From Nitrososphaeraceae archaeon (GTDB taxonomy: Archaea > Thermoproteota > Nitrososphaeria > Nitrososphaerales > Nitrososphaeraceae), in assembly GCA_021325295.1 (NCBI GenBank), contig JAJPHM010000068.1, positions 1 through 34,564 on the forward strand: a stretch of 34,564 bases of DNA. Reading direction: 5' to 3'. Positions 25,300-27,785 of the stretch are shown here, one piece after another. How positions within the stretch are numbered: the stretch's first letter is position 1; each line of letters starts with the position of its first letter. The notes below the pieces were generated by a model. That model worked only from the letters and a program-made list of their open reading frames with translations, had not been told where the DNA came from and searched no databases. Both the position numbers and the translations under genes were made by a program.

Positions 25300-25569
25300 T
25301 TAGGCTTGAGCGAAAGACGAGTGCCTTGCCGCAAAAGGCTTCTCAATTACAATCATCGTAAGAGTCGACTTGACCTTATCCACATTTCTTATATTCCAGC
25401 TGATAATTTCCTTCAGCTTGTCCATTGTTTCGGCAGTAACTTTTACAATAATATCATAGGCACCATATAATGCACTCACTTCTTCTACCTCAGGCAGCCT
25501 CTTCAGCTCCTGCTGTATTTCATCTTCTGATCCAAATTCGCAGTTTATCAGAACATACGCTGTTGCCAT
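25300..25569 (-). CDS. Stand-alone Lrp/AsnC ligand-binding (RAM) domain protein
   Basis: An 89-residue protein that is only the alpha/beta RAM domain of Lrp/AsnC regulators. Its sequence, from AYVLINCEFGSEDEIQQEL through VEEVSALYGAYDIIVKVTAE to TLTMIVIEKPF, is the complete betaalphabetabetaalphabeta fold. No DNA-binding helix-turn-helix is present. Such proteins may sense amino acids and oligomerise with full Lrp proteins. A TATA-like CATTTATACGG lies about 38 bp upstream. A second copy ends the window at 34439, with closely similar sequence (MDRLRETITWHVRRIDKVRS). Confidence 0.88.
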   Translation of the reverse strand: MATAYVLINCEFGSEDEIQQELKRLPEVEEVSALYGAYDIIVKVTAETMDKLKEIISWNIRNVDKVKSTLTMIVIEKPFAARHSSFAQA

Positions 25570-25742: not shown

Positions 25743-26003
25743 ATGTCTGATAGGCTGCAATACAGTGGCAAGGTATACCTGTATAGTAGTGGAATGCCAC
25801 AAGATATGATAGAGACAGGCAAGCAAAAACTGGTTGAATTTGGCGTCAATATCGACGATATAGTTGTTATAGAGGTGCCGGAGGGCGTGCCCGAGGGCTG
25901 CATAATGGTCACCATATGGCCCCATTACCTTTCAGTAGCAAAAGTCAAGCGCGTAAGGGATGGGTCGATATATGCTCCACAACTGTTCAATATTCAACTC
26001 TAG
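25743..26003 (+). CDS. Hypothetical protein, 86 residues
   Basis: Unrecognised. It begins MSDRLQYSGKVYLYSSGMPQ and continues with strand-rich sequence (VNIDDIVVIEVPEGVPEGCIMVTIW), ending IYAPQLFNIQL. It has one Cys, no signal peptide, no membrane segment and no motif. The composition suggests a small beta-rich soluble protein. A TATA-like GCTATATGC about 20-25 bp upstream is consistent with a leaderless start. Divergent to the RAM-domain gene; no operon partner is evident. Confidence 0.6.
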   Translation: MSDRLQYSGKVYLYSSGMPQDMIETGKQKLVEFGVNIDDIVVIEVPEGVPEGCIMVTIWPHYLSVAKVKRVRDGSIYAPQLFNIQL

Positions 26004-26153
26004 CCTCTCCTATTTTGTTCGTCCTGCTTTATTTCATTTTATTTCGACCTGCTTTGACAGGCTTGATCAGGCTGCTCCAAAAAAAGTCTGTGCTTCTTTT
26101 CCAAAGCATTAAATTAAATTGAATCTGGTCAGATCAAGTAGCAGTGGCCTGGG

Positions 26154-26300
26154 ATGCTTACATTCTTTTGCCGAAGAAACAGGCACGGTGATTGCCCGGG
26201 GGAGTGGCCCATAAACGAGTCATGTGGTCCCAACCATGACTGCTCATTTGACATAAAGATGACGAAGTGCCAGTGCGGCTGTCATGCCAGTTCAAAATGA
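26154..26300 (+). CDS. Cys/His-rich mini-protein, 48 residues
   Basis: The frame reads MLTFFCRRNRHGDCPGEWPI, then NESCGPNHDCSFDIKMTKCQ and CGCHASSK, with seven Cys (6, 14, 24, 30, 39, 41, 43) and three His (11, 28, 44) in 48 residues. That density of spaced Cys with polar residues is a metal-binding or disulfide pattern not expected from a chance frame. An AT-rich TATA-like stretch (ATTAAATTAAATT, 26108-26120) lies about 40 bp before the ATG, giving a predicted leader near 13 bases. No membrane helix or signal peptide, so zinc or cluster binding in the cytoplasm is favoured. No family recognised, and too short for usual gene cut-offs. Confidence 0.62.
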   Translation: MLTFFCRRNRHGDCPGEWPINESCGPNHDCSFDIKMTKCQCGCHASSK

Positions 26301-26423: not shown

Positions 26424-27581
26424 ATGTTATTGGGTGGTTTGGGTTTCTATGCTCTTCAGCTTGGTGCCCTGTTTGGCGGTCCTTCAAGCTCTGGTTCTGA
26501 TGCCAACAACCCGTGGATGTACATTGTATGGTTCGCCCCAATTGTTGTCCTTATGCTTTACGGGCAAAAGTTTCAATCATACATGATACTTAGCGACGTG
26601 TCAAAGTCTCTGGCAAAGCTCAAGACAATGAAAGAAGAAGCCAGAGACGAAGCAATCAAGTATGTCAAAGAGTACGTAAAGTTGCCATCTGATCCAACTT
26701 CAAATATAGACAAGTTCCTGGAATACTTTGCAATTATGCCAGTCGATATTGACCCCTCCGGCCTTGTAAGCAAGCTTGACCATGTAATGAGGACCAAAGA
26801 CGAGCGGATCAGGTCTGAAGTAAGAAAGATGGCAAGTGGAATAGACGAATCAGACATATCCAGAATCGAAAATATCCTCGAAGCCGCAACTGCGCTCAAT
26901 TCTATATACAAAGTGGTAAGACACTTTTACCTGATGGGCAAGCGCACAACAAGCATGTTTGTCTTGGTGCAGCTCCAGATGGCAATGCCGATGCTGCTGC
27001 AAGAGGCAGAGGCCCTGAAAAATGCCATAGGTGCATTCAAGAAAGGACAGCCAATTGGCGACAGCATAGGACCAATGGTTGTTGGAAAGATGATGCTTGG
27101 AAAGGAAAAGCAGCTGGTGGCAAGGGAGACTGTTCTCTGTGAACAGGAGTTTATGAAAAGAAAGATCTACCTTATGAAGGCAGAAGGACCGGGTGGCACA
27201 GTTGGCAGGCCCGGAGAAGCCATTGTCCGCCTTGTGCAGGAGCTTGGGACAAAGATTGACACCATCATTATGGTAGACGCCGCGCTAAAGCTTGAGGGAG
27301 AAAAAACAGGAGAAATAGCAGAAGGGGTAGGCGCAGCAATAGGCGGCATAGGTGTAGAAAAGTATCAGATCGAGGAGGTAGCGACCAGGTTCAGCATACC
27401 GGTTTATGCAATAGTGGTGAAGCAATCGATACAGGATGCAATCACCATTATGCGCAAAGAAATAGCAGAGTCTTTTGACAAAGTAACAGAGGAGGTTTAC
27501 TCAACCATACAGGACAAGACCGAAGAAGGTCAGTCTGTGCTTGTAATAGGTGTGGGAAACACAATCGGGGTGGCCCAATGA
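26424..27581 (+). CDS. DUF1512-like archaeal membrane protein
   Basis: A 385-residue protein that I assign to the archaeal DUF1512 family from its length and order of segments. A hydrophobic N-terminus with one helix (about 31-48, WMYIVWFAPIVVLMLYG) is followed by a helical cytoplasmic part. This contains KYVKEYVKLPSDPTSNIDKFLEYFAIMPVDIDPSGL and a C-terminal alpha/beta part with KAEGPGGTVGRPGEAI, DTIIMVDAALKLEGEKTGEIAEG and VLVIGVGNTIGV. The function is unknown. Its start is uncertain: a TATA-like TATAAAAA at 26409-26416 is too close to the ATG, and an upstream GATTTAAT near 26375-26382 would give a 19-base leader. It ends nine bases before the zinc-ribbon gene, so the two are cotranscribed. 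Confidence 0.75.
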   Translation: MLLGGLGFYALQLGALFGGPSSSGSDANNPWMYIVWFAPIVVLMLYGQKFQSYMILSDVSKSLAKLKTMKEEARDEAIKYVKEYVKLPSDPTSNIDKFLEYFAIMPVDIDPSGLVSKLDHVMRTKDERIRSEVRKMASGIDESDISRIENILEAATALNSIYKVVRHFYLMGKRTTSMFVLVQLQMAMPMLLQEAEALKNAIGAFKKGQPIGDSIGPMVVGKMMLGKEKQLVARETVLCEQEFMKRKIYLMKAEGPGGTVGRPGEAIVRLVQELGTKIDTIIMVDAALKLEGEKTGEIAEGVGAAIGGIGVEKYQIEEVATRFSIPVYAIVVKQSIQDAITIMRKEIAESFDKVTEEVYSTIQDKTEEGQSVLVIGVGNTIGVAQ

Positions 27582-27590
27582 TTGTTATTC

Positions 27591-27785
27591 ATGAAAAAAA
27601 AGGACCCCAAGCCTGAAATCTTTAGCGAGGAAACATGCCAGTCTTGTGGCGAGAAAATAAGGAGAAGTTTTGAGGAAGGAGACTATGTTTTCAGGGCTGG
27701 CTCGCCGTGCAAAAAGTGTTCCTCAGACACAATAATAAGCTCAATCTACGGAGAATATCCTCCTGAAAAGCAAGAGAAAAATTGA
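27591..27785 (+). CDS. Small zinc-ribbon protein
   Basis: A 64-residue basic/acidic protein with C-x2-C (CQSCGEK) and, 22 residues on, C-x2-C (CKKCSSD): a four-Cys zinc ribbon. It starts at ATG 27591; a TTG at 27582 directly after the previous stop is an alternative. It is placed immediately behind the DUF1512-like gene on the same strand, so it is likely cotranscribed and functionally linked. No other domain. Likely a structural metal site for protein or RNA binding. It converges with the methionine aminopeptidase gene. Confidence 0.78.
   Translation: MKKKDPKPEIFSEETCQSCGEKIRRSFEEGDYVFRAGSPCKKCSSDTIISSIYGEYPPEKQEKN

Follow-up and report, generated by a model that had tools for sequence, protein, structure and literature searches.

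A conserved Cys/His-rich mini-protein gene of mesophilic ammonia-oxidizing archaea with candidate ligands for two zinc ions

Among the closest described systems to the gene reported here are the C(P)XCG micro-proteins of Haloferax volcanii. In the accessible text of the work on these proteins, 9 of the 14 that were purified held zinc and 5 were zinc-free, and the metal geometry predicted by AlphaFold2 was incorrect (PMC11241148). In another archaeon, deletion of small zinc proteins is described, in the accessible part of that report, as giving phenotypes for 12 of 16 (PMC6562870). The small zinc-finger protein Brz is encoded by a gene that adjoins its target (PMC2253796), and the UBR-box and other binuclear treble clefs are small domains that accommodate at least two zinc sites (PMC4506424), as far as the available sections of these two papers go.

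The ammonia-oxidizing archaea belong to Earth's most abundant organisms, and many of their lineage-specific genes are without an assigned function. The gene considered here is in a contig of a Nitrososphaeraceae archaeon, the whole 34,564 nucleotide stretch of which was analysed and is referred to as the window. The features of the region are:

25743-26003, + strand: F0, gene for an 86-aa protein, the conserved upstream neighbour of the mini-protein gene
about 26107-26119, + strand: TATA-like element CATTAAATTAAAT, approximately 35-47 bases before the mini-protein ATG
26154-26300, + strand: mini-protein gene, 48 aa, Cys/His-rich, with ATG at 26154 and stop codon TGA at 26298-26300
26169-26195, + strand: N-terminal basic knuckle C6-x4-H11-x2-C14 (CRRNRHGDC), with C6, H11, and C14 invariant in alignment A2
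26238-26285, + strand: C-terminal motif D29-C30-S-F-D-x5-C39-x-C41-x-C43-H44 (alignments A2 and A6), with C30, F32, D33, C39, C41, and H44 invariant in A2 and C43 invariant in the soil form (A6)
26424-27581: DUF1512 gene, the downstream neighbour of the mini-protein gene

A preliminary description of this DNA placed at 26154-26300 a frame of 48 residues, seven of them Cys and three His, and this proved exact when the window sequence was read again. The protein, MLTFFCRRNRHGDCPGEWPINESCGPNHDCSFDIKMTKCQCGCHASSK (the translation of window positions 26154-26300, + strand), has Cys at positions 6, 14, 24, 30, 39, 41, and 43 and His at positions 11, 28, and 44. The spacer that holds the gene is flanked by F0, ending at 26003, and by the DUF1512 gene, starting at 26424. 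Only one of the 125 open reading frames of 40-60 aa in the window has at least seven Cys and at least three His, and it is this one; 200 mononucleotide-shuffled windows contain 6 such frames among 28,360, or 0.03 per window. Homology is, on the sequences compared, far stronger evidence for the gene than this Cys/His count against chance.

The mini-protein was compared by tblastn with its own genome and 100 relatives (101 genomes), and 67 of these have a match at E <= 1. Conserved homologues in related genomes, which the preliminary description had proposed to look for, are present as an intact copy at E <= 1.3e-14 in 58 of the 61 genomes of the same family, counting its own, the three genomes without a match being G041, G058, and G059. 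Five genomes of other families also match (four of family f9 and one of f3, E 5e-9 to 9e-7), while the four remaining genomes, at E 0.04 to 0.2, were counted as chance matches. A frame broken in close relatives, which had been named as the observation to count against the gene, was not seen; it is intact in all 63 strong loci read. In f1 the likely start falls within 2-5 codons of the conserved block, and in f3 and f9 it precedes the block by 8-14 codons; the relatives are mostly 44-63 aa and up to 76 aa in length.

The synonymous/non-synonymous comparison, also suggested earlier, gave a pooled dN/dS of about 0.21, being 0.214 for 18 independent soil-type pairs and 0.206 for 9 Nitrosopumilaceae-type pairs. 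Single pairs range from 0.02 to 0.5, except for one near-identical marine pair at 0, which has one synonymous change and nothing else. The pairs of high divergence (dS near 1), with dN/dS of 0.3-0.5, are close to saturation and were kept in the pool. Judged by these ratios, this is a real gene under purifying selection; homology and dN/dS together rule out a spurious ORF. An origin from a virus or plasmid was likewise rejected: viral contigs gave 6 pattern matches and no true relatives, and no credible plasmid or phage relative was found, the matches to PHROGs being only weak.

A species-genome collection of 84,980 genomes, by its own description, was scanned with the family profile, giving 232 pattern matches, of which 113 are relatives. 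Of the 113, the 80 best were retained, and by title they belong to Nitrososphaeria, thaumarchaea, or unclassified archaea, except for one bin labelled 'bacterium' (L083), which has a protein nearly identical to those of Nitrososphaeraceae genus g5. The pattern that seeded the scan held part of the knuckle, and therefore the tblastn set is less biased for conservation counts. An alignment of 46 of the 63 tblastn loci (A1) has the same invariant Cys and His as the 65 sequences of A2, in which C6, H11, C14, C30, C39, C41, and H44 are invariant, as are F5, F32, and D33. C24 is not conserved among the relatives and, from the alignments, is unlikely to be a metal ligand.

The protein occurs in two forms. 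The soil form has C43, giving CxCxCH, and lacks an N-terminal Cys; in the Nitrosopumilaceae form the N terminus carries CWFC and the chain ends in CxCxH. Among 75 distinct proteins, a count that leaves out L116 and L123 as their start is unclear, the eighth candidate ligand is C-terminal (C43) in 49 and an N-terminal Cys in 26, with no protein having it at both ends or at neither. By the alignment of the soil-only and Nitrosopumilaceae-type profiles, at E 3.8e-18, the two forms are homologous. With seven invariant Cys/His and one that is relocated, there are eight candidate ligands in each form, as two tetrahedral zinc sites would need. The move of the ligand was perhaps a single evolutionary event, in which case the constant count of eight may be chance.

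Within the order, the family profile matches 191 of 300 genomes (64 of f1, 126 of f9, and 1 of f3), nearly always with one match per genome, and archaeal amoA (PF12942) is found in 190 of the same 300. Both are present in 172 genomes, the mini-protein only in 19, amoA only in 18, and neither in 91. All 19 genomes with the mini-protein only are from f1 and f9, where amoA is present in the majority of genomes, which would suggest incomplete assemblies as the likely cause. The 18 with amoA only are four of f1, six of f9, one of f3, and seven of f2. Indeed all of the amoA-bearing f2 genomes (7 of 7) lack the mini-protein, and no divergent copy is seen in these 7 genomes at E <= 10. In a phylum-wide draw, 48 of 300 genomes match at E <= 0.01, of which 46 are true matches (E <= 6.5e-19) and belong without exception to f1 and f9. 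The remaining two match over only 18-19 residues, one in an alcohol-dehydrogenase-like frame and one with an internal stop.

The f2 genomes are small and carry amoA, and the G+C content of their 16S rRNA is 0.60-0.61 in four genomes versus 0.53-0.58 in two of f1, one of f3, and two of f9, a comparison that leaves out a fifth f2 genome, where the locus is cut by the contig end. No 16S was obtained from f2 genome G110 or from the window's own genome, and only a partial one from f3 genome G078. Small genomes, amoA, and a 16S rRNA of 60-61% G+C suggest that f2 is the thermophilic Nitrosocaldaceae, which is probably the case; this name, as the family names generally, is one that we infer. In the accessible part of a study of these groups, the thermophilic Nitrosocaldales form the sister group of all remaining ammonia oxidizers, and the name CAMA is given to the ancestor that the mesophilic ones share (PMC7554672). 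A single gain of the mini-protein in the ancestor of the mesophilic ammonia oxidizers fits this distribution. With these family names, the gene is confined to mesophilic ammonia oxidizers, being kept in soil and marine forms and absent from amoA-less relatives and from the probable thermophilic sister group. By the genomes searched, nearly all soil and marine ammonia-oxidizing archaea carry it, in one copy.

The TATA-like element upstream of the gene had also been claimed before, and the relatives bear it out, with TATA-like hexamers enriched in those of soil type. CATTAAA is present at -32 to -38 in 14 of these. Of 48 soil-type upstream regions, including that of the window, 33 have a TATA-like hexamer at -45 to -22 versus 11.5 +/- 3.0 in dinucleotide shuffles, and 23 have one at -36 to -26 versus 5.9 +/- 2.3. 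At control positions the enrichment in the soil form is much weaker or absent (10 versus 6.7 and 8 versus 7.4 shuffled). The Nitrosopumilaceae form has no TATA enrichment at -36 to -26 (1 of 27 versus 2.8 shuffled). It is likely that the mini-protein gene has its own promoter in the soil forms. The box in the window, at -47 to -35, is somewhat farther upstream than the soil-form enrichment, which would mean a short leader instead of none, and a putative transcript start near 26141 fits its position.

The reading that we favour, and take to be moderately probable, is that of a single-copy, vertically inherited gene of mesophilic ammonia oxidizers for a two-zinc mini-domain that acts as a small adaptor. 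The knuckle C6-x4-H11-x2-C14, a beta-hairpin, and the CxCxCH tail would hold two zinc ions, coordinated by the eight Cys/His candidate ligands, and the metal would give this very short chain its rigidity. The basic N-terminal knuckle, with K/R at positions 7, 8, and 10, probably makes contact with a partner, either protein or nucleic acid, and the mini-protein would be a small housekeeping adaptor, much like archaeal zinc-finger micro-proteins. AlphaFold2 models of the two forms are moderate, with pLDDT of 77 and 73 and pTM of 0.45 and 0.46, and both have much the same order of a short helix, the helix turn, the beta-hairpin, and the Cys-rich tail. The zinc or cluster binding put forward in the preliminary description is supported by the eight Cys/His columns kept in each form, among which C24 is not counted; the identity and number of the metals, the fold, the adaptor role, and the partner are what we infer from the conserved columns and the models. 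That the Cys instead serve as ligands of an Fe-S cluster or of a metal other than zinc (copper, cobalt, or nickel), with the protein a redox sensor or metal buffer, appears unlikely. The seven to eight conserved Cys/His would suit this as well, a non-zinc metal is present in some of the small zinc-finger-like proteins of archaea (PMC11241148), and ammonia-oxidizing archaea depend heavily on copper (PMC7785015), both as given in the accessible text of these papers. Against it, the invariant His, F32, and D33 suggest a defined fold and surface, not a metal buffer. The Cys content, 7 of 48, is also below that of typical metallothioneins, and no such protein is named in the accessible part of a copper-limitation study.

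The surroundings of the gene bear on whether the mini-protein could regulate the adjoining gene locally, in the way that Brz, a small zinc-finger protein, regulates bop; this we consider quite improbable. The precedent of Brz, encoded beside its target in the available text (PMC2253796), is matched here by F0, which in 44 of the 58 same-family loci immediately precedes the mini-protein gene on the same strand, 7 to 153 bases away. F0 and the mini-protein are also both found in f1, f3, and f9 and neither in f2: F0 is in 61 of the 101 genomes, in f1, both f3, and four f9 (with about 30-33% identity in f9), and in none of the 7 f2 genomes. They have a common family-level distribution and are not always neighbours. 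The 14 other same-family loci are eleven of g5, two of g10, with no F0 in the stretch examined, and one with F0 approximately 1 kb upstream. In g5 the mini-protein gene is apart from F0 and, in the loci with flanks read, has cbiG on one side and a DUF359 gene on the other. In most Nitrosopumilaceae loci it follows a class IV aminotransferase gene at a distance of approximately 32 bases, which suggests co-transcription with that gene, and F0 is elsewhere. The neighbours differ between clades, and therefore the function is not pinned by any operon partner. That the ORF is untranslated, its conservation being due to RNA or chance, is hardly credible: the frame is short, as this would have it, but the synonymous excess (dN/dS about 0.21) strongly contradicts it, and no other frame is open in more than 12 of 49 soil or 12 of 29 Nitrosopumilaceae sequences, in a count where frame +1 is open by construction. 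A noncoding RNA was also rejected, as there is no Rfam match at the place of the gene or elsewhere in the spacer, the only one being a tRNA at 1110-1184.

F0 itself is strongly conserved, with 17 invariant columns in 20 sequences. Neither Pfam nor NCBIfam contains a family that matches it better than chance, and its one PDB profile match, to the ssDNA-binding protein 4psl, is weak and non-significant (E 0.2). A stand-alone Lrp/AsnC ligand-binding-domain gene by Pfam (25300-25569, - strand) adjoins F0 and is divergent from it. In one Nitrosopumilaceae-type genome, a gene that by eye looks similar to this Lrp/AsnC type (L159:1882-2124, - strand) is 15 bases from F0 on the same strand. On the other side, directly behind the DUF1512 gene, 27582-27785 (+ strand) encodes a 67-aa zinc-ribbon-like protein (CQSCG...CKKC), and this pair is kept in several relatives (neighbour families F20 and F26). 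In some Nitrosopumilaceae-type genomes a 57-aa C2H2-finger-like gene is directly upstream of the mini-protein gene (L121:4783-4956, + strand); it is found at 5 loci (family F51), with a match to Pfam zf-C2H2_4 of E 0.00055 that is below the cut-off.

A wider claim can be made, that this is a hallmark gene of the mesophilic ammonia oxidizers, which their common ancestor gained with F0 after the thermophilic split, with a two-zinc mini-domain of a new ligand pattern in which one ligand moved from one chain end to the other and the count stayed at eight, and that it is a lineage-specific component of a core machine such as the ribosome, RNA polymerase, or an ammonia-oxidation assembly; as a whole we hold this to be rather unlikely. 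The mini-protein is of interest to specialists of ammonia-oxidizing archaea. Its small size would permit NMR and metal analysis directly on the protein, and the two natural forms, between which a candidate ligand has changed place, lend themselves to testing how a site can be rewired in a two-metal mini-domain.

The mini-protein has no entry in the family libraries searched, Pfam and NCBIfam, where the window protein matches no family at E <= 10 and other members have only weak matches (best E 0.002), none above the cut-off in the 46 and 28 members scanned against Pfam, in agreement with the earlier remark that this is not a classical finger. A mucin-domain match in Pfam (E 0.002, 2 of 46 members) was taken as Cys composition. 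The best matches in a PDB sequence search are at chance level (NLRP3, E 0.79; desulfoferrodoxin, E 0.99), Foldseek gave no match for the window model and chance-level matches for the Nitrosopumilaceae-form model, and VIA-align gave nothing convincing. The models being only moderate, a fold match could have been missed. No paper on the mini-protein was found in the literature that was accessible, a weak negative, and its homologues may be present in GenBank as hypothetical proteins.

Some of the Nitrosopumilaceae forms have in common with DUF6248 (PF19761) a short stretch around a CxxCxxGxHxxC knuckle. The best match is at E 0.0059, with 11 of 28 members matching, and the two members shown score 13.8 and 14.6 against a cut-off of 26.7 bits; the profile has a length of 155, and the alignment covers only residues 10-38. 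A CxxCx7C spacing, with GRH inside, is shared with the structural-zinc loop of an MDR alcohol dehydrogenase (CFFCRDGRHNLC, genome G362), over 19 residues at E 0.001. This loop (L154) is within a 344-residue frame, which from its sequence we take to be an MDR alcohol dehydrogenase, and it has no CxCxCH tail; as a relative of the N-terminal knuckle it was set aside as convergence on a zinc loop. The UBR-box and other binuclear treble clefs resemble the putative two-zinc mini-domain in combining at least two zinc sites within little sequence, and there is no Pfam or PDB match between them, so that neither sequence nor fold places it there. The N-terminal ligand pattern of the UBR-box is different from that of the mini-protein.

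The general kind, the archaeal zinc micro-protein, is already known. The C(P)XCG proteins of Haloferax volcanii (HVO_2753 and HVO_0758, for example) are, like the mini-protein, archaeal, single-domain, and of fewer than 70 aa, which holds for the 48 aa here, with Cys-based candidate zinc sites. They are defined by two C(P)XCG motifs, whereas the mini-protein has no C(P)XCG pair; a single CQCG occurs in the window protein, with a Gly that is not conserved in relatives. It has instead conserved candidate His residues, the CxCxCH tail, and eight candidate ligands, and is from another lineage. Within this known kind, the mini-protein is real, conserved in its candidate-ligand columns, and lineage-restricted.
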